From Nitrospirota bacterium (GTDB lineage Bacteria; Nitrospirota; Thermodesulfovibrionia; Thermodesulfovibrionales; UBA1546), in the NCBI GenBank assembly GCA_021824065.1, contig JAKALU010000013.1:1-33465 (forward strand): DNA of 33,465 nucleotides, in the 5' to 3' direction. Under the pieces are notes generated by a model. The model saw only the letters and a list, made by a program, of their open reading frames with translations, ran no database searches and had not been told where the DNA came from. Position numbers and translations under genes: made by a program. The first letter of the stretch is position 1, and the number at the start of each line of letters is the position of its first letter. Of this stretch, positions 16,870 to 26,964 are shown in pieces.

Positions 16870-17187
16870 ATGAACAGAATGTTAATAGTTATTTTCCCTA
16901 TCCTCGCTTTTGTTTTATCTGCATATGGAGGGGATAACACACAAAAGGAAGTTACTCCTTATGGTGTTTCATGTCATTTGTGCGGCGCATATGGATACTG
17001 TGATAAACAGCCTGCACACAAAAAGGCAGTCAATGCCCTTAAATCGTATTATGAAAAGAAGGGGTTGAAGGCGGTTGTTATAAAGGAAGGCGGAAGGTTT
17101 GTAGAGGCAGACGTTTACAGGAACAAGGAGATAGTTGACAGAGCCCTGTTTGACTGTAGAACAGGACGGATAAGGTCAATATATTGA
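16870..17187 (+). CDS. small exported Cys-rich protein, unknown
   Basis: 105 aa. An N-terminal signal (MNRMLIVIFPILAFVLSAYG) is followed by an 85-residue mature part containing CHLCGAYGYC and one more Cys near the end (FDCRTGRIRSIY). The cluster looks like a metal-binding or redox site; the rest (YYEKKGLKAVVIKEGGRFVEADVYRNKEIVDRALFD) has a mixed alpha/beta pattern. No family recognised. A TGC-TAATTT extended -10 ends 7 nt before the ATG without a Shine-Dalgarno. It lies directly upstream of the CYCXC selenoprotein gene, and both have TTCA repeats upstream, suggesting common control. Confidence 0.7.
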   Translation: MNRMLIVIFPILAFVLSAYGGDNTQKEVTPYGVSCHLCGAYGYCDKQPAHKKAVNALKSYYEKKGLKAVVIKEGGRFVEADVYRNKEIVDRALFDCRTGRIRSIY

Positions 17188-17250
17188 TGATAATGATGGG
17201 CGCATACACACTTTGAAACCATCGGATTAGCTAAAAATAACTTGGAGAGA

Positions 17251-17265
17251 TTCATAATTTCTTCA
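17251..17265. promoter_or_regulatory. TTCA direct repeat, 11-nt spacing, upstream of CYCXC gene
   Basis: TTCATAATTTCTTCA holds two TTCA units exactly 11 nt apart. The first, TTCATAAT, is identical to part of the array at 16809. It lies about 60 nt before the selenoprotein ATG. Confidence 0.4.
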
Positions 17266-17326
17266 AAATTAAATGGTAGCCTTAAGGCTAAAGAAGATTA
17301 AGGGAATTACCAAAGGAGGGAGAAAG

Positions 17327-17734
17327 ATGAAGACATATAGTCTTAAATATATCGCTATCGCCACTATCATGCTCTTTTTTACAATAGGCGTAAGCGAGGT
17401 AATGGCGCAGAAGACAGTAAAAGACGAATCTCTTAGGAGGGGTGAGACAAGGTCTACACTTGACCCGAATATGTTTTCAAATTACGCGACCATAAAAAGG
17501 GCATATCAGATAGCAAAGGAGATCCCGTGGGTTCTGGACAGCATTTACTGTTATTGTTTTTGCGAAGATTCGCCAGCTTTCAAGCATAAGAGCCTTCTCA
17601 GTTGCTATCTTGACAACCACGCTGCGATGTGAGACATTTGTCTTGGGGAAGCCATGAGGGCTTTCGAGCTTTACAAAAAAGGATATTCCGTAAAACAGAT
17701 ACGGAATACAGTTGAAAAAGAATACAAGAGGTAA
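17327..17734 (+). CDS. CYCXC-family (seleno)protein with in-frame UGA (Sec102)
   Basis: The track ends this protein at a TGA (17630-17632), but the frame stays open beyond it to TAA at 17732-17734. It adds DICLGEAMRAFELYKKGYSVKQIRNTVEKEYKR, a coherent amphipathic helix pair. The full product is 135 residues: a signal peptide (MKTYSLKYIAIATIMLFFTIGVSEVMA), the CYCFC motif in SIYCYCFCED, HKSLLSCYLDNHAAM, then U102-D-I-C. This order matches the CYCXC (PCYCGC, PF13798-type) family from memory, where C-x-x-C or U-x-x-C follows the H-rich segment; that is established knowledge not checked here. It is an exported, probably thiol/selenol redox or metal-binding protein. AAAGGAGGG 5 nt upstream fixes the ATG at 17327, not the track's 17273. 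Confidence 0.82.
17630..17665 (+). promoter_or_regulatory. candidate bacterial SECIS downstream of UGA
   Basis: After the UGA, GGAAGCC-augag-GGCUUUC (17647-17665) can form a 7-bp stem with one G-U pair. Its loop starts 22 nt after the UGA, within the usual distance for a bacterial SECIS. The loop's first two bases are A and U rather than including G, so the fit is imperfect. Confidence 0.4.
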
Positions 17735-17753
17735 TCAAATGTGGATAAAGTAG

Positions 17754-17825
17754 AGATTCTGAAACAAGTCCGGCATGACAACTAAAAATCGAATAATCTG
17801 TCATTCTGAACTTGTTTCAGAATCT
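17754..17825. repeat. palindromic intergenic element, 15-bp perfect arms
   Basis: AGATTCTGAAACAAG and CTTGTTTCAGAATCT are exact reverse complements separated by 42 nt that include CATGACA and TGTCATTC. It is the same family as 2828-2885, in inverted half order. It lies between the selenoprotein and the efflux operon, immediately before the AGGAGG site of the next gene. Confidence 0.8.
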
Positions 17826-17845
17826 AATAACAACAGGAGGAAGAC

Positions 17846-18235
17846 ATGAAAAAATTGGCTGTATTCAGTTTAATCCTGCTTTTAATAGCAGGCATAGCAT
17901 ACGCAAAGGACTACGAGGTAAAGAAAAAGGCAGGGGATTATGATGTCGAAGTAAAGATCGATAAGAACCCGCCTGTTGTTGGTGACAACAACATTAAGGT
18001 TGAGATAAAAGACTCCGCTGGCAAATATGTCACTGATGCAAAAGTAAAGGTTGAATACTCCATGCCAGCAATGCCGGGTATGCCTGCAATGACCTATAAA
18101 ACAGATGCTGCATTAAAGGGCAATGAATATAAGGCAAAGATGAATCTTTCGATGTCAGGTGCATGGAATGTTGCTGTAAAAATAATTCGTGGCGGCAAAA
18201 CAACAACAGTAAAGTTCAATGTGGATGCACATTAG
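17846..18235 (+). CDS. exported YtkA/FixH-like protein with Met-rich loop
   Basis: 129 aa. Signal peptide MKKLAVFSLILLLIAGIAYA, then a beta-sandwich (KAGDYDVEVKIDKNPPVVGDNNIKVEIKDSAGKYVTDAKVKVEYSMPAMPGMPAMTYKTDAALKGNEYKAKMNLSMSGAWNVAVKI) typical of YtkA-like/FixH domains. The MPAMPGMPAM loop contains several Met residues suited to Cu(I) or Ag(I). It directly precedes the CusC/B/A genes, so a periplasmic metal-delivery role like CusF, though unrelated in fold, is a reasonable inference. A GGAGG site lies 7 nt before the ATG. Confidence 0.85.
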   Translation: MKKLAVFSLILLLIAGIAYAKDYEVKKKAGDYDVEVKIDKNPPVVGDNNIKVEIKDSAGKYVTDAKVKVEYSMPAMPGMPAMTYKTDAALKGNEYKAKMNLSMSGAWNVAVKIIRGGKTTTVKFNVDAH

Positions 18236-18248
18236 AAACAGAATAAAG

Positions 18249-19568
18249 ATGCCAGAGCACAGAGCACAGACAAAATCTCTAAAATCACTGGTTAAAAAAT
18301 CTGTGTTCTGTGTTCTGTGTTCTGTGTTCTTGGCTCCTAATGCTTTTGCTGAAGACTTAAAGCTTCAGGATCTGATTGATGAGGGATTAAAAAATAACCA
18401 TGACCTTATTGTTTCTGAGTTCAGGGCCTCTACTTCGAAATACAGAATACCTCAGGCTCAGAGCCTTCCTGATCCAATGTTCATGGTCGGTTATCAGAAT
18501 GAAGGGTGGAGCAGATATACATATGGCGAAATGGAAGGCGCACAATGGATGTTCTCTGCATCTCAGATGTTCCCATTCCCGGGGAAACTCTCATTAAAAG
18601 GAGAGATGGTTGCTAAAGAATCTGAAAGCCTGAAGGCATCGTATGAATCTGCAAAACTTGCAACCATAGCAAAAATCAAAGAACTATACTATGATTTATT
18701 TCTTACATATAAGGATATTGACCTTATCGGAGACAAGACTGCGCTTTTCTCAAAAATAGAGGATGCTGCACTTGCACGATATTCAACTGGCATGGCGCCT
18801 CAACAGGAAGTCCTGATGGCACAGACAGAAAAATACATGCTTCTTGAAAAAGAGGAGATGCTGAAACAAAAAATCCAATCCATCGAGGCAATGCTCAATG
18901 CAACTGTTGGAAGGGATATTAATTCTCCGCTCGGCAGACCGGTTGAGCCTGCTTACACCGCATATGATTATAGTATGGATGGGCTGCTTACGATGTCATA
19001 CGAAAATTCTCCAGAGATAAAATTTAAAGAGAAAATGATTGAGGCAGCAGCAGCAAAGGTTAAGATGGCTGAGAAAGAATATTATCCCGATTTCACACTC
19101 AGTGCGAGCGTATTTAAAAGAAAAGGTGATTTTGAAGACATGTGGAGTCTTACAACCACAATTAATATCCCAATATTTTATAGGACAAAACAGAAAATGG
19201 CTGTGCTTGAGACAGAATCCTCCCTTGCAGAAGCAAGGCATGAACTTGAGGCAACAAGGTTTATGCTGGCTTCTGGCATAAGGGACAACTACTCAATGTT
19301 AAAGACAGCAGATAGATTGATGGAACTTTACAAAAATGGTCTGATACCCAAAACATATCAAGACTATGAATTAGCCTTATCAGGTTATATAACAGGAAAG
19401 ATTGAGGCAATAACTGTTATATCGAGGCTAAAATCTCTCATTGACTATGAACTTTTATACTGGGGACAGTTCGTTGAAAGGGAGAAAGCAATAGCAAGGA
19501 TTGAGGCATTAACGACAGTCAGTAGTCAGCAGTCAGTAGTCAGCAGTCAAGGAGAAAAAGAGAAATGA
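18249..19568 (+). CDS. TolC-family outer membrane channel (CusC/CzcC-like)
   Basis: 439 aa from the ATG at 18249. The track's 18219 start overlaps the upstream gene and only lengthens the leader. Signal peptide: MPEHRAQTKSLKSLVKKSVFCVLCSVFLAPNAFA. Its hydrophobic core SVFCVLCSVFL is encoded by tandem heptanucleotides (18300-18330). The mature protein starts EDLKLQDLIDEGLKNNHDL and shows two OEP repeats (KEYYPDFTLSASVFKRKGDFEDMWSLTTTINIPIFY in the second). It exports ions handed over by the adaptor and pump. The C-terminal tail TTVSSQQSVVSSQGEKEK is also repeat-encoded. The stop overlaps the adaptor start by 4 nt (ATGA). Confidence 0.9.
   Translation: MPEHRAQTKSLKSLVKKSVFCVLCSVFLAPNAFAEDLKLQDLIDEGLKNNHDLIVSEFRASTSKYRIPQAQSLPDPMFMVGYQNEGWSRYTYGEMEGAQWMFSASQMFPFPGKLSLKGEMVAKESESLKASYESAKLATIAKIKELYYDLFLTYKDIDLIGDKTALFSKIEDAALARYSTGMAPQQEVLMAQTEKYMLLEKEEMLKQKIQSIEAMLNATVGRDINSPLGRPVEPAYTAYDYSMDGLLTMSYENSPEIKFKEKMIEAAAAKVKMAEKEYYPDFTLSASVFKRKGDFEDMWSLTTTINIPIFYRTKQKMAVLETESSLAEARHELEATRFMLASGIRDNYSMLKTADRLMELYKNGLIPKTYQDYELALSGYITGKIEAITVISRLKSLIDYELLYWGQFVEREKAIARIEALTTVSSQQSVVSSQGEKEK
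18253..18330 (+). repeat. heptad-repeat hairpin at start of TolC-family gene
   Basis: The left arm CAGAGCACAGAGCACAGA (period 7) pairs with the right arm TCTGTGTTCTGTGTTCTG through 18 bp, including two G-U wobbles, with a 29-nt loop. It begins 1 nt after the ATG at 18249-18251. Copies of CTGTGTT continue to 18330. Confidence 0.85.
19517..19549 (+). repeat. heptad tandem repeat at 3' end of TolC-family gene
   Basis: Units AGTCAGT, AGTCAGC, AGTCAGT, AGTCAGC, AGTCA. It encodes the C-terminal SSQQSVVSSQ stretch before the stop. Confidence 0.8.
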
Positions 19569-20866
19569 AAAAGAGAAAGCTGATAATCATCGCTGGATTG
19601 ATTTTAGTAGCTGGGTTTTTATTTTATCTTTCAAAATCAGGCTCGCTTGATAATATTTTAAAAACTAAAGCAGAGAAGTCCGTACAATCATCTCAAGCTA
19701 ATCCAGAACATCAGCAGTCTGCAGAAACCGCAAAACCCGAGGAACAAAGCCAACCTCCGGAGGAGCAAACAGAAGAAGTTCCTACAGTTGAAATACCCTT
19801 AGACAAACAGCAGTTAATCGGGGTTAAGACAACCGAGGTAGCAGTAAAGCCCCTTCAGAAGATTATAAGAACAGTAGGCCGTATTGAATATGATGAGAGA
19901 AGGCTTGCCACTGTTAATACAAAGATTGAAGGATGGATTGAGAAACTCTATGTGGATTATACAGGCAGATATGTAAAAAAAGGAGAACCACTATCTGAGA
20001 TTTACAGCCCTGAGCTCATCGCTACTCAGCAGGAATTCATAAATGCAGTGAAATGGGGTCAGTCTCCTCAGGCGACTCGTCCGCACCCGGGCGGACTCGC
20101 CGAGGAGAGCCGAGGCGAGGGGTCAGGGGTCAGGGGTCAGGAGTCGAAGGTAGTTAGTGAATTAATATCAAAGGATGCCGCGGCAATAGTCGAGGCTGCA
20201 AGACAGAGATTAAGACTCTGGGACATAACAGAAAATCAGATCAAAAAGATTGAAGAAACAGGAAAGCCTATAAGGACATTGACTATATACAGCCCTGTGA
20301 GCGGCTATGTTGTTCAAAAAATGGCATTGCAAGGGATGCGTGTAATGCCTGGCGAAAAGCTTTTTGATGTTGCAGACCTGTCAACAGTCTGGGTAGTTTC
20401 TGATATTTATGAATATGAATTGCCTCTGATAAAAACAGGACAGACAGCAAAAATAAGTCTGAGCTATTTCCCCGGCAAAGAATTTTCATCAGTGATTGAT
20501 TATGTTTATCCTGCACTTGCAGGCGAGACAAGGACTGCTAAAGTAAGATTCTCAATCTCAAATCCCGGCGGGCAGCTTAAACCCCAGATGTTTACCAACG
20601 TAGAAGTAAAGATTGACCTTGGCAGAAAACTTGCCATTCCTGATGATGCTGTAATTGATACAGGCACAAGGCAGATTGTCTATGTGGATAAAGATGAAGG
20701 ATATTTTGAACCGAGGGAGGTAATGCTCGGCATAAGGGCAGAAGGTTTCAGAGAAGTGGTCATGGGATTAAAAGCAGGCGAAAAGGTCGCCTCATCTGCA
20801 ACGTTCCTAATTGATTCAGAGGCACAGCTTAAAGGTGTCACACCGCTGGGCGAACATAAACATTAA
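19565..20866 (+). CDS. RND efflux periplasmic adaptor (CusB-type)
   Basis: 433 aa. A single N-terminal membrane anchor (LIIIAGLILVAGFLFYLSKSG) and a Gln/Glu/Pro-rich linker precede the adaptor domains. IRTVGRIEYDERRLATVNTKIEGWIEKLYVDYTGRYVKKGEPLSEIYSPELIATQQEF is the CusB-like barrel-sandwich/hairpin start. VSGYVVQKMALQGMRVMPGEKLFDVADLSTVWVVSDIYEYELPLIKTGQ and the beta-barrel region follow. Residues about 160-187 (SPQATRPHPGGLAEESRGEGSGVRGQES) are encoded by a GC-rich palindrome plus heptad repeats in the hairpin tip, where extra length may be tolerated. The Met-rich N-terminal metal site of E. coli CusB is not evident. It is part of the CusCBA-like operon. Confidence 0.92.
   Translation: MKKRKLIIIAGLILVAGFLFYLSKSGSLDNILKTKAEKSVQSSQANPEHQQSAETAKPEEQSQPPEEQTEEVPTVEIPLDKQQLIGVKTTEVAVKPLQKIIRTVGRIEYDERRLATVNTKIEGWIEKLYVDYTGRYVKKGEPLSEIYSPELIATQQEFINAVKWGQSPQATRPHPGGLAEESRGEGSGVRGQESKVVSELISKDAAAIVEAARQRLRLWDITENQIKKIEETGKPIRTLTIYSPVSGYVVQKMALQGMRVMPGEKLFDVADLSTVWVVSDIYEYELPLIKTGQTAKISLSYFPGKEFSSVIDYVYPALAGETRTAKVRFSISNPGGQLKPQMFTNVEVKIDLGRKLAIPDDAVIDTGTRQIVYVDKDEGYFEPREVMLGIRAEGFREVVMGLKAGEKVASSATFLIDSEAQLKGVTPLGEHKH
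20071..20145 (+). repeat. GC-rich palindrome and heptads inserted in adaptor CDS
   Basis: GGCGA-(CTC)-GTCCGC pairs with GCGGACTCGCC (20091-20101) around an ACCCGG loop, an 11-bp stem with a 3-nt bulge. Then AGGGGTC occurs three times and AGGAGTC once (20118-20145), period 7. In frame, it encodes QATRPHPGGLAEESRGEGSGVRGQES. Confidence 0.8.
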
Positions 20867-21074: not shown

Positions 21075-24000
21075 ATGATAGCAAAAATAATAGAATACAG
21101 CGCAAGAAACAAATTCATAATATTTCTGCTGATCGGATTTCTCTCTGCATGGGGATACTGGTCGCTTAAGAATACACCATTGGATGCAATACCTGATTTA
21201 AGCGACACGCAGGTAATAATATACACTGAATGGCCGGGAAGAAGTCCAGACCTTGTTGAGGACCAGATAACATATCCAATTACATCCACTCTATTGGCAG
21301 CGCCAAAGGTGCAGGTTGTGCGCGGATTTTCCTTTCTCGGCAGTTCATTCATTTATGTCATTTTTGAAGAAGGTACAAATATATACTGGGCAAGGAGCAG
21401 GGTTTTAGAATATCTTCAGGCAGTTAAAAATAAACTCCCGCCTGATGTAAACCCTGTTTTAGGACCTGACGCTACCAGCGTAGGATGGGGCTTCAGTTAT
21501 GCAGTTGTAGATGAAACAGGCGGACATGACCTCTCGCAACTTCGTTCTATCCAAGATTGGAATACCAAACTCGCTCTTGAAAGCGTACCCGGTGTATCGC
21601 AGGTCGCCAGTGTCGGGGGATTTGTAAAACAATATCAGATAAACATCGACCCCAATCGCCTTGCAGCATATAACGTACCTGTTATGAAAATCATGGAGTC
21701 TATCCGCCGAAGCAATAAGGATGTGGAGGGTCGCGTCATTGAGTTTTCAGGTGTGGAATACATGGTTCGGGGCCGAGGGTATATCAAAAGCATTAAGGAC
21801 TTAGAGGATATCCCTGTTGGCACAAATGGTGTCGGGACACCTGTATTCTTACGTGATATTGCTAATATCCAGCTCGGGCCCGAGATAAGGAGGGGACTTA
21901 TTGACCTTGATGGGAAAGGCGAAGTGGCTGGTGGCATTGTTGTTGTCCGTTTTGGGGAGAATGTCCTTAATGTCATTGAACGTGTGAAAGAAAAGATCGA
22001 AAACGACATTCAGCCCAGTCTGCCAAAAGGCGTTAAGATCATTACCACCTATGACAGGACAGATCTTATACACAGGTCAATAGACACCTTAAAAGATGAG
22101 ATAATCAAGCTGTCGGTGGCAGTCAGTGCAGTCTGTGTCGTGTTTCTTTTCCATCTGCCCAGTGCCCTTGTTGTTATATTGACACTGCCTGTCGCCATTA
22201 TTATTTCATTTATTTGTATGTATTACATAGGGGTTACGTCAAACATCATGAGTCTTGGCGGCATCGCCATTGCTATTGGAGCTATGGTGGATGCCTCTAT
22301 TATCATGGTTGAAAATGCCCATAAAAAACTTGAGGACTGGGAACTGCACGGGAAAACTGGAAATCGTTTGGATGTAATTATAGATGCTGCAAAAGAGGTT
22401 GGGCCGTCTCTGTTTTTCTCTCTCCTGGTTATTACGGTTGGATTCCTTCCCATATTTACACTACAGGCACAGTCAGGAAGGCTTTTTAAACCGCTGGCAT
22501 ACACAAAAACATTTGCTATGCTCTTTTCATCCTTTCTTGCCATTACACTGACACCCGTTCTAATGGGTCTTTTCATAAGAGGGAAGATTCGACCTGAAGA
22601 AAAGAATCCGGTCAGTCTGATATTGCACAAACTATACGAGCCGATCGCAAAAATTGCATTAAGGTTCAGAAAGACAGTCATAATCCTTGCAATAATTATA
22701 ATGTTGTTAACAGTTTATCCTTTCATAAAACTCGGCTCTGAATTTATGCCTCCGTTATATGAGGGGACGCTTTTTTATATGCCTGTTACTGTTCCCGCTG
22801 CTTCAATCTCAGAGGTGTCGAAGCTGCTTCAGATACAGGACAAAATTCTAAAAAAAATCCCTGAAGTGACCCATGTCTTTGGAAAGGCTGGACGTGCCGA
22901 GACCGCAACAGACCCGGCGCCCCTCGAGATGTTCGAAACCGTTATTAATCTCAAGCCGGAATCAGAGTGGCGCAAGGGGATGGATGTAGAAAAACTGAAG
23001 AATGAGATGAACGAGGCGCTCACAATCCCTGGGGTTGCGAACTCCTTTACAATGCCGATTAAGGCCAGAATCGATATGCTTGCAACTGGTATAAGAACGC
23101 CTGTAGGAGTTAAGGTCTTAGGACCTAAAATTGATGTAATAGAAAAGATTGCCATGAATGTGGAGAATGCCATAAAAGAGATTAAAGGCACAAGAAGTGC
23201 TTATGCTGAAAGATTAACAACCGGTTATTTCCTTGATATTAAACCAAAGCGCAATGAGATAGCACGTTATGGTCTTTCCATGGATGACGTTCAGGATGTG
23301 ATTGCGAGTACACTTGGCGGCATGACCCAGACAATAACTGTGGAGGGCAGAGAGAGATATCCTGTAAATGTCAGATATTTACGGGAATTGAGAAACGATA
23401 TAGAGAAAATAAAGAGGATACTCGTCCCTGTCAACCTCTCGGGTGGCTCATCCAATATGCAGGGCATATTTACTACTGCTATGGGGACAGCCCAGATACC
23501 ATTGGGAGAAATTGCTGATATAAGCATTGTTAAGGGACCAACATCGATTAAGAGCGAAGAAGGACTTCTCGCAGCGTATGTTTTTGTTGACTTTTCTGGT
23601 CGTGATATTGGCGGTTATGTCGGGGAGGCAAAGAAAAAAGTTGCGTCTACTGTTAAGTTACCAGAAGGCTATAGACTTGAGTGGAGCGGCGAGTACGAAT
23701 ATCTTGTTAGGACACATGAAAGGTTGAAACTCGTTATTCCCCTTACAGCACTTATAATTTTTGTTCTTATTTATTTCAACACCAAGTCAGTGACAAAGAC
23801 AATAATCGTTCTTCTTGCTGTCCCGTTCTCCCTCGTTGGGTCTTTCTGGCTTCTTTATCTTCTTAATTACAACATGAGTATTGCGGTATGGGTCGGTATT
23901 ATAGCTCTTGCAGGTCTTGATGCAGAGACTGGTGTCGTAATGCTACTTTATCTTGAGCTTGCATATGAGAAATGGAAAAAGGAAGGCAAACTAAATTCCG

Positions 24001-24245
24001 GCAGTGATCTAAAAGATGCTGTAATGTATGGCGCTGTAAAAAGGATACGCCCTAAGATAATGACTGTGAGCGTCATCCTTGCCGGGCTTATACCGATAAT
24101 GTTCAGCCATGGCACCGGAGCTGATGTGATGAAACGAATTGCAGCTCCTATGGTGGGCGGTGTTATAACATCCACAATCCTTGAGTTAATAATATACCCT
24201 GCTATTTATATGATATGGAAAGGGAGGGGATTTAACAAACAATGA
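21075..24245 (+). CDS. heavy-metal RND efflux pump, CusA type (Cu+/Ag+)
   Basis: 1056 aa, full-length HME-RND transporter with 12 expected membrane helices. Family blocks include [122 protein letters not shown] and [43 protein letters not shown] is the Met-containing signature of monovalent-ion (CusA) members. CzcA-type divalent-ion pumps instead carry a TQPI...ELISG pattern (from memory). [17 protein letters not shown] is also CusA-like. It acts as a proton-driven trimer with the adaptor and channel encoded upstream. Its stop overlaps the cytochrome start by 4 nt. Confidence 0.95.
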   Translation: [1056 protein letters not shown]

Positions 24246-24743: not shown

Positions 24744-25814
24744 ATGGGAGAGATTGAAAAACTGAGAGACGGGATTGATGCTGTTGATGAAGAGATTCTC
24801 AAGCTCCTCAATAAAAGAGCAACGATTGTACTTGAGATCGCCAGGATAAAACGTAATAATAAAGCAAAGTTTTACTCGCCTGAGCGCGAGCGGCAGATAA
24901 TAGAGAGGCTGACATCTTTGAACAAAGGGCCTTTCCCGAATAATGCGCTTAAAGCCCTTTATAGAGAATTACTTTCTGCCTCTTTGTCACTTGAAGAGCC
25001 TCTGAAGATAGCGTATTTCGGACCTCAAGCTACATTCACACACCTTGCAGCTCTAACACACTTCGGTTCCTCAGCAGCGTTTATACCTATGGAAAACATA
25101 AAAGGCGTATTTGACGCTGTTGACTCAGGAAAAGCTGAATTTGGAGTCGTGCCAATAGAGAATTCAAGCGAGGGAGTGATAAGTTATACACTCGATATGT
25201 TTATGGATTTTGACCTTAAGATTAACGCTGAGATAATGCTTGAGGTATCGCATAACCTGCTTTCAAAAAGCGGGAATAAAAGCAGGATTAAAAAAATATA
25301 CTCTCATCCCCCTGCAACTGCACAGTGCAGAAGATGGCTTGAGGCCAACATGTCTGGCATACCTGTAATGGAAGCCACGAGCACAGCAAAGGCAGCAGAG
25401 CTTGCCTCAAAAGAGGATGATGCTGCTGCGATTGCAAGCGAGCTTGCGGCTAAAGTTTATGCCCTCAACTTTGTGGAAGCTCATATAGAAGACAGCAAGC
25501 ACAACATTACAAGATTCCTTGTAATATCTAAGGAATCTTATCCGAAAACAGGAAAGGATAAGACATCTATAATGTTTTCCATAAAAGACAGGCCTGGCGC
25601 TCTCTATGATATCCTCTCGCCATTCAAGAAGGCAAAGATAAATCTCACCAAGATTGAGTCAAGACCTTCACGAAGAAAGGCTTGGGAATATATCTTCTTC
25701 GTGGATATGGAAGGCCATATAGAGGATAAAAAAGTCAGAAAAGCTATCGAGAACATGAAAGAGGGATGTCTATACCTTAAAATTCTTGGCTCCTATCCTC
25801 ATGGTGGCCAGTGA
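24744..25814 (+). CDS. pheA: bifunctional chorismate mutase / prephenate dehydratase
   Basis: 356 aa. An AroQ-type chorismate mutase (1-85: LRDGIDAVDEEILKLLNKRATIVLEIARIKR...FYSPERERQI) is fused to prephenate dehydratase (about 90-265: IAYFGPQATFTHLAAL, GVVPIENSSEGVI, HNITRFLVI with the TRF catalytic motif). A C-terminal ACT domain (about 272-350: MFSIKDRPGALYDILSPFKKAKINLTKIESRPS) should bind phenylalanine for feedback inhibition. It converts chorismate through prephenate to phenylpyruvate. A TAGGAG site fixes the ATG. It is the first gene of the aromatic operon; its TGA overlaps the GTG start of the next gene. Confidence 0.96.
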   Translation: MGEIEKLRDGIDAVDEEILKLLNKRATIVLEIARIKRNNKAKFYSPERERQIIERLTSLNKGPFPNNALKALYRELLSASLSLEEPLKIAYFGPQATFTHLAALTHFGSSAAFIPMENIKGVFDAVDSGKAEFGVVPIENSSEGVISYTLDMFMDFDLKINAEIMLEVSHNLLSKSGNKSRIKKIYSHPPATAQCRRWLEANMSGIPVMEATSTAKAAELASKEDDAAAIASELAAKVYALNFVEAHIEDSKHNITRFLVISKESYPKTGKDKTSIMFSIKDRPGALYDILSPFKKAKINLTKIESRPSRRKAWEYIFFVDMEGHIEDKKVRKAIENMKEGCLYLKILGSYPHGGQ

Positions 25815-26899
25815 TAAAGGCTCCAGAGCATATAAGGACTATAAAGCCGTATGTCCCTGGTAAACCTATCGAGGAACTTGAGAGAGAGCTTGGGATAAAA
25901 AACTCCATTAAACTTGCATCAAATGAAAATCCAATCGGGCCGTCACCACTTGCCTTAAAGGCAATAAAAAACCGCTCAAACTGTTTAAACAGTTTAAACC
26001 GTTATCCTGATGGTAGTGGATATTATCTTAAGAATGCATTAGCAGAAAAACTATCTGTAAAGCCCGAAGAGATTATACTGGGTAATGGCTCGAATGAACT
26101 CATTGATATAGCAGCAAGAACATTCATGAGTCCTGGTGATGAGGCTGTTATGGCGTATCCGTCTTTTGTTGTTTATTCTATGGCTGTTCAAGCAATGGGC
26201 GGGAGGGCAATTCAGGTGCCATTGAAAGATTATAAACATGACCTTAATGCAATGTTGGATGCAGTGACACCAAGAACAAAGATGCTCTTTATTGCAAATC
26301 CCAATAACCCAACAGGAACTATGAACACCAGGACAGAACTTGACAGGCTTATGAGCAGGGTCAAGGATGGTATTCTTGTGGTTATTGACGAGGCATACTA
26401 TGAGTATGTCACAGACCCTGAATACGCTGACAGTTTTAAACACTTCAGGAATGGGAAGGACATATTAATCCTGAGGACATTTTCTAAGATATACGGGCTC
26501 GCTGGGCTAAGAATCGGCTATGGTATTGCAAGGCAGGACATAATAACTGAGATGAATAAGATACGCGCTCCATTTAACACAAACACAATTGCGCAGAAAG
26601 CAGCAATTGAGGCATTAAAAGACAAGACACATGTAAGGCTGTCACAGAGGATAAATAATAATGGTAAAGAATATCTGTATAAGGAACTATCTTCACTTGG
26701 TATAAAATATGTTCCCACAGAGGCGAACTTTATATATATGATCATGGATAAAGATTCAAAAACAGTCTATGATGCCCTGTTAAAGCAGGGTGTGATAGTA
26801 AGGCCTATGGGTCCAAAAGAACTTAGAGTGACCATAGGACTGCCAGAGGAAAATAAGAGATTTATTGGTGCACTTAAAAAGTCAAGAGTTGAGAGTTAA
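25811..26899 (+). CDS. hisC: PLP-dependent histidinol-phosphate/aromatic aminotransferase
   Basis: 362 aa, fold type I. IKLASNENPIGPSPLALKAI, NRYPDGSGYYLKNALAEKL, LGNGSNELIDIAARTF, IANPNNPTGT, VVIDEAYYEYV and RTFSKIYGLAGLRIGYG (with the PLP Lys) are all present. Within an aromatic operon it probably makes Phe and Tyr from phenylpyruvate and 4-hydroxyphenylpyruvate, perhaps in addition to histidine synthesis. Start is GTG at 25811, overlapping the pheA stop. The last five residues and the stop (SRVES, TAA) lie inside a heptad-repeat element. Confidence 0.93.
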   Translation: MIKAPEHIRTIKPYVPGKPIEELERELGIKNSIKLASNENPIGPSPLALKAIKNRSNCLNSLNRYPDGSGYYLKNALAEKLSVKPEEIILGNGSNELIDIAARTFMSPGDEAVMAYPSFVVYSMAVQAMGGRAIQVPLKDYKHDLNAMLDAVTPRTKMLFIANPNNPTGTMNTRTELDRLMSRVKDGILVVIDEAYYEYVTDPEYADSFKHFRNGKDILILRTFSKIYGLAGLRIGYGIARQDIITEMNKIRAPFNTNTIAQKAAIEALKDKTHVRLSQRINNNGKEYLYKELSSLGIKYVPTEANFIYMIMDKDSKTVYDALLKQGVIVRPMGPKELRVTIGLPEENKRFIGALKKSRVES

Positions 26900-26946
26900 G
26901 AGTCATTGGTATTTTAATTTTCACCTTTTAACTTTTAACTCTGAAC
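26884..26946. repeat. heptad-repeat inverted element spanning hisC stop
   Basis: The left arm AAGAGTT, GAGAGTT, AAGAGTC and right arm TTTTAAC, TTTTAAC, TCTGAAC each have period 7. They are near reverse complements (GAGAGTTAAGAGT against CAGAGTTAAAAGT). It lies in the hisC-aroF gap and contains the hisC stop codon. Confidence 0.8.
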
Positions 26947-26964
26947 TTACTACTGGAGGAATAG

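Follow-up and report, generated by a model that had tools for sequence, protein, structure and literature searches.

Organization of the cusC-like efflux locus

The window analysed here, a 33,465-nt stretch of contig JAKALU010000013.1 from a Nitrospirota genome (GCA_021824065.1), contains a ytkA-like gene followed on the same strand by cusC-, cusB- and cusA-like genes (Table 1). The cusC-like product is identified as a TolC/CusC outer-membrane factor by its OEP domains and by the RND operon context, with HlyD_D23 and ACR_tran genes downstream. The last 17 nt of ytkA are shared with the probable start of cusC, and the ytkA-like protein has an ordinary signal peptide of its own, MKKLAVFSLILLLIAGIAYA.

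Table 1. Features of the ytkA-cusCBA region (window coordinates)
Feature	Position	Strand	Evidence and remarks
ytkA-like gene	17846..18235	+	129 aa; Pfam YtkA 1.1e-20, also FixH; directly 5' of the cusC-like gene
cusC-like outer-membrane efflux (TolC-family) gene	18219..19568	+	Pfam OEP PF02321 6.8e-35; 449 aa from probable ATG 18219
Signal-peptide coding region, MWMHIRNRIKMPEHRAQTKSLKSLVKKSVFCVLCSVFLAPNAFA	18219..18350	+	translation; cleavage after NAFA predicted by eye
Left arm of inverted heptamer element, CAGAGCA units	18253..18270	+	encodes polar n-region EHRAQ
A/T-rich spacer (loop) between arms	18271..18299	+	encodes basic TKSLKSLVKK
Right arm, (TCTGTGT)4.4 = (CTGTGTT)4.4	18300..18330	+	encodes hydrophobic h-region SVFCVLCSVF
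Second heptamer array (CAGTCAG/TAGTCAG)	19516..19549	+	encodes cusC C-terminal tail VSSQQSVVSSQ; site recurs in relatives
cusB-like membrane-fusion gene	19565..20866	+	HlyD_D23 5.7e-81
Third heptamer array (AGGGGTC), inside cusB	20118..20145	+	encodes GSGVRGQ; site recurs in relatives
cusA-like RND transporter gene	21075..24245	+	ACR_tran 3e-214

Tandem Repeats Finder reports two 7-nt arrays in the cusC leader, one of 2.6 copies in the left arm and one of 4.4 copies with 100% matches in the right arm. In the frame of the ORF at 18219-19568, the right array encodes SVFCVLCSVFL; next come APNAFA and then E, a plausible signal-peptidase I site. By inspection the leader appears to have a Sec-type n-region, an h-region and an AxA-type cleavage site; the mature start that follows, EDLKLQ, is conserved among orthologues. 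The A-rich arm thus encodes the polar n-region and the T-rich arm the hydrophobic core. The translation agrees with the initial annotation, according to which the CTGTGTT repeat forms the hydrophobic core of a TolC-family signal peptide, and the observation extends to other genes and genomes, as described below.

The pairing of the two arms is likewise borne out: the left arm, CAGAGCACAGAGCACAGA, pairs by hand with the right one through 18 bp including two G-U pairs, and perfect-match inverted-repeat length understates this hairpin because it ignores G-U pairs. The fold of 18236-18340 has a computed energy of -38.4 kcal/mol, whereas dinucleotide-shuffled sequences give -18.5 +/- 3.3 (z -6.1, with 0 of 200 shuffles as good). 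Such a structure at the ytkA-cusC boundary could be a selected intercistronic hairpin, which would lower or uncouple expression of cusCBA relative to ytkA or protect the ytkA mRNA end; tight packing of the genes would account for its overlap with the signal peptide, and repeat DNA would be convenient raw material. Against this idea, a terminator scan of 18253-18340 found neither a plus-strand terminator match nor a U-tract at the hairpin, and Rfam gave 0 matches at the gathering score across 17000-20500.

Start codon of the cusC-like gene

Comparison of orthologous sequences indicates that cusC probably starts at ATG 18219 and not at ATG 18249; a further in-frame ATG at 18225 is an alternative, and both 18219 and 18225 overlap the end of ytkA. 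We judge a start at 18249 less likely than either, because cusC lies in the frame of a ytkA-overlapping start in 64 of the 86 orthologues with an upstream ytkA (P about 1e-14 against an expectation of 1/3), and because several orthologues have no ATG other than the overlapping one. The hairpin had been described as beginning 1 nt after the start codon and as a possible translational brake. The first statement holds for a start at 18249 only, and not for the two starts that the comparative evidence prefers; as to the second, the computed fold is real, but with a start at 18219 about 32 nt would separate the initiation codon from the downstream hairpin, which weakens the case for a brake.

Rapid turnover of the ytkA-cusC junction

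We gathered cusC orthologues at 110 loci, 93 of them unique, using 61 genomes together with scanned contigs of named genomes; each species is represented by one genome, and many of the genomes are metagenome bins. Across the unique loci ytkA adjoins cusC in 86 of 93, and an array of period 7 or 8 lies at the cusC junction in 30, as against 0 of 372 mature segments, with no arrays in the folded core of cusC in any of the 93. The junction array is present in 12 of the 13 family members that have a close cusC orthologue. Further recurrent array sites are found at the cusC-cusB boundary and at two places with coordinates in cusB. The distance from the ytkA stop to the mature cusC start is 52-76 nt in compact orthologues and mostly 103-163 nt in those with a hairpin. 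The orthologues that the initial annotation had named as counter-evidence, without the repeat and with a different signal peptide, occur among more distant relatives only; close ones carry other repeats.

The identity of the repeated unit at the junction varies by species (CTGTGTT, CTGTCTT, TTCTGGC, TGCATCA, TTTACTG, TTCACTG, TGTCAGC and 8-base forms), with at least 24 changes of unit type on a mature-protein tree, an approximate figure from a quick tree and unit classes set by hand. The mature cusC sequences of L035 and L041 are 97% identical in nucleotides over 900 nt, yet their junctions are 55% identical, which is near chance (50% for shuffled sequences, 95th percentile 54%). In L034 and L032 the corresponding values are 89% and 51%, and L178 and L186, with 92% protein identity, differ by 138 nt at the junction. 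That near-identical proteins carry completely different repeats leads us to conclude that export tags appear to have been rebuilt repeatedly from dispersed repeat DNA.

In a sliding fold scan hairpin z peaks only at the cusC junction and rises less strongly where cusC meets cusB; its mean at the junction is -2.6 in the 29 nearest loci and about -0.2 elsewhere, including over ytkA's own signal peptide. The recurrence of a strong fold at exactly the ytkA-cusC boundary despite differing sequence is what a selected intercistronic hairpin would predict, as is its lower frequency in the few loci without an adjacent ytkA (1 of 7 versus 48%). The distant orthologues L197, L179, L162 and L052 encode the signal peptide across a non-repeat stem-loop, a few of these with T-runs (in L197 the stem-loop is followed by a T-run, as in an intrinsic terminator), and these too favour the selected hairpin. 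The compact orthologues weigh against it, having no left arm, no hairpin and, except for L142, no array, while L142 itself keeps a right-arm array without a left arm. With the change in LolA described below also counting against it, we regard a selected intercistronic hairpin as unlikely.

At the junctions of L034, L037, L040, L147, L155 and L157 we noted a further dispersed-looking palindrome, AATCCCCC...GGGGGATT, which in several orthologues is nested between the heptamer arms and is read, for example, as NPPQSPLIKGG. Another junction, that of L161, was considered as a frame-broken allele and rejected as such, its frame being open and a deletion beside the array having removed the first mature residues together with the last part of the signal peptide; it is possibly a damaged or recently deleted cusC copy.

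Heptamer arrays across the genome

The window element has many relatives in the same genome. A search of the 2.73-Mb genome for CTGTGTTCTGTGTT, allowing at most one mismatch, gives 46 matches, as compared with 0 for the reversed control, and the sequence is therefore a member of a dispersed family rather than a chance repeat; its matches often have AACACAG units in the first arm and CTGTGTT units in the second, separated by an A/T-rich loop. In a 1.35-Mb sample, about half the genome, we counted 57 arrays of period 7, 15 of period 8 and none of periods 3-6, against 0 at any tested period in a Markov-shuffled control, and a stricter exact-repeat count agrees. The CTGTNTT form itself is restricted, its strict pattern being matched in 12 of 148 Nitrospirota genomes.

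Most of the 57 period-7 arrays (47) lie inside ORFs or their N-terminal extensions, and 10 are intergenic. Of 26 arrays in gene interiors, 24 run in the hydrophilic orientation and give inserts such as RAQNTEHRTQ and SEVRSQKSEVR; one interior array lies in L015, which by eye we take to be a B12-type ribonucleotide reductase. With gene starts and signal peptides assigned by simple rules, signal-peptide-like N-termini have arrays in 12 of 189 cases, a 6-fold higher frequency than that of interior segments (39 of 3611, P 5e-6); the count for other N-termini is 10 of 817. Repeat-built leaders occur in the envelope families SpoIID, LolA, LptD, secretin, T2SSK pseudopilin, ATP-synt_B, Peripla_BP_2 and TPR lipoprotein, and besides cusC, LolA and SpoIID about ten other envelope genes of this genome have them. 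In L068, L071 and L201, among others, a polar array precedes a hydrophobic one, as in the window.

The inverted layout, the many dispersed copies and the in-frame insertion in many ORFs are reminiscent of a short mobile palindromic element that has landed in signal peptides by chance, and the 138-nt difference between L178 and L186 might be explained in the same way. Such an element would be like the Rickettsia palindromic elements, which are dispersed palindromic DNA inserted in frame in protein-coding genes (PMC10969869). Those elements, however, form families of about 150 bp with conserved sequence and peptide, whereas the copies described here share only a 7-nt period and a loose vocabulary of short units, with differing loops and lengths and no conserved ends, and they make a targeting signal. 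We thus find a mobile palindromic element improbable.

Leaders of LolA and SpoIID and concerted change of units

Period-7 arrays are present in the leaders of 14 of 16 LolA orthologues and 12 of 14 SpoIID orthologues, with units that are almost all different, and hairpin z is -2.4 and -2.2, respectively, as compared with about 0 in mature controls. Many units recur among cusC, LolA and SpoIID and constitute a limited common vocabulary, and we estimate that this sharing exceeds chance. That the same signal-peptide sites are filled by different units across the family indicates that the arrays turn over quickly.

The LolA pair L265 and L266 differs by G-to-T at four right-arm positions exactly 7 nt apart, which points to concerted array evolution, as slippage or unequal exchange predicts. 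Four G-U pairs are lost to mismatches through the right-arm changes, and the single change in the left arm does not compensate for them. As judged from these two sequences, the pair argues against strict selection on arm pairing, at least there; conserved RNA pairing is unsupported in this one close pair that was checked, and both a selected intercistronic hairpin and the translational brake lose ground accordingly. In a separate observation, the LolA signal region alone matched parts of other, longer ORFs in related genomes (L277, L278 and L279), and these alignments suggest that the same repeat-built leader may be present on non-homologous proteins.

Slippage of this kind raises the question of phase variation, in which gain or loss of 7-nt units would shift the reading frame of the mature protein and so switch the efflux system on and off, as the initial annotation had proposed. 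Seven-base arithmetic allows it: the window array is perfect, 1, 4 and 7 copies are in frame, and 2, 3, 5 and 6 copies hit early stops, while concerted unit change implies that slippage-like events happen. The promoter regions of hmw1A and hmw2A in Haemophilus influenzae carry 7-bp arrays whose copy number varies by strain, and those contingency loci resemble the cusC leader in that expression could depend on how many copies of a 7-bp repeat are present; they differ in that the arrays there are in promoters, whereas the array here is coding and one genome per species was compared. No out-of-frame orthologue was found among the loci examined, and an array of four copies is short for a contingency locus. 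Moreover, like arrays sit in housekeeping genes, namely lptD, lolA, the ATP-synthase B gene and the apparent B12-type ribonucleotide reductase gene, which makes random OFF-switching implausible. The proposed switch is thus not upheld, and of the explanations weighed here we hold it the least probable.

Proposed origin of the repeat-encoded signal peptides

These data support a model, to which we assign a probability of roughly two in three, where dispersed, fast-evolving heptamer DNA settles where the protein tolerates it and has been recruited to encode signal peptides, its units turning over fast, the cusC feature being one copy of a dispersed heptamer repeat that is often an inverted pair of an A-rich arm, an A/T-rich loop and a T-rich arm. 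Slippage or recombination in steps of 7 nt would spread and homogenise the units of an array, and selection would remove array lengths that break the frame. Complementing a codon swaps A and T at position 2 and hence polar and hydrophobic residues. Codons that have A at position 2 specify polar residues and their complements, with T there, hydrophobic ones; an inverted pair with its A-rich arm first therefore encodes a signal-like peptide, and could serve as a ready-made one in which the left and right arms become the n- and h-regions. Signal peptides tolerate much sequence change. At cusC, an inserted array would have extended, or taken the place of, an earlier and compact signal peptide begun inside ytkA, and the hairpin would be mainly a by-product of the inverted layout.

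A generic self-complementarity of all n- and h-regions arising from codon composition was also considered and is rejected, because ytkA's own signal peptide has no hairpin excess at the same loci. Tolerance alone fails to explain arrays in nearly all cusC, lolA and spoIID leaders of the family as opposed to none in ytkA, and some maintained property of the cusC, lolA and spoIID loci may be at work. A further reading, which goes beyond passive tolerance of repeats, is an active, template- or recombination-driven replacement of signal peptides from a common vocabulary of 7-base units in inverted pairs, acting on a defined set of envelope genes; we consider it unlikely.

With co-option of dispersed repeats as the preferred reading, it looks, from the genomes compared, as though repeat DNA in a group of environmental Nitrospirota has repeatedly supplied an apparently working targeting signal on several unrelated envelope proteins. 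Near-identical mature proteins with unrelated signal peptides offer a natural comparative system for the origin and minimal sequence of export signals, and the complementary-codon rule, polar to hydrophobic and the reverse, could allow a signal peptide to arise from any repeat that forms a hairpin. Start sites called automatically and alignments of N-termini should be treated with caution in these genomes, since many are likely to be wrong.

Relation to known repeats and other palindromes in the window

Heptameric repeats are known to be over-represented in bacteria, a phenomenon that has been called little studied; the well-described cases are intergenic (PMC4692102). The heptameric SSR/STRR sequences of Nostoc, Calothrix and Xanthomonas resemble the present arrays in having 7-base tandem units at many dispersed loci, sometimes as inverted pairs, and in varying extensively in length and sequence between related genomes (PMC4692102). 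They differ in that the known ones (Xanthomonas, Nostoc) are mainly intergenic, whereas only the minority noted above is so here and several arrays serve as signal peptides. A second likeness is to a system in which dyad-symmetric repeat DNA codes for a portion of membrane-targeted proteins (PMC2996958); the repeats there are long, 25 residues in the protein, and are neither 7-nt arrays nor signal peptides. Our search of the literature, which covered few subscription journals, turned up no description of signal peptides that consist of heptanucleotide repeats.

Elsewhere in the window, an inverted heptamer pair (AGTTAAG and then TTTTAAC units) at 26880-26948 spans the end of the gene at 25811-26899 and the gap before 26965. 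A palindromic element, GATTCTGAAACAAGT...ACTTGTTTCAGAATC, lies 5' of ytkA at 17755-17824; its half-site GAACTTGTTTCAGAATC has 10 genome matches at one mismatch or fewer as compared with 0 in the control, which indicates a second dispersed palindrome family, and a related sequence is found at about 2818-2885.
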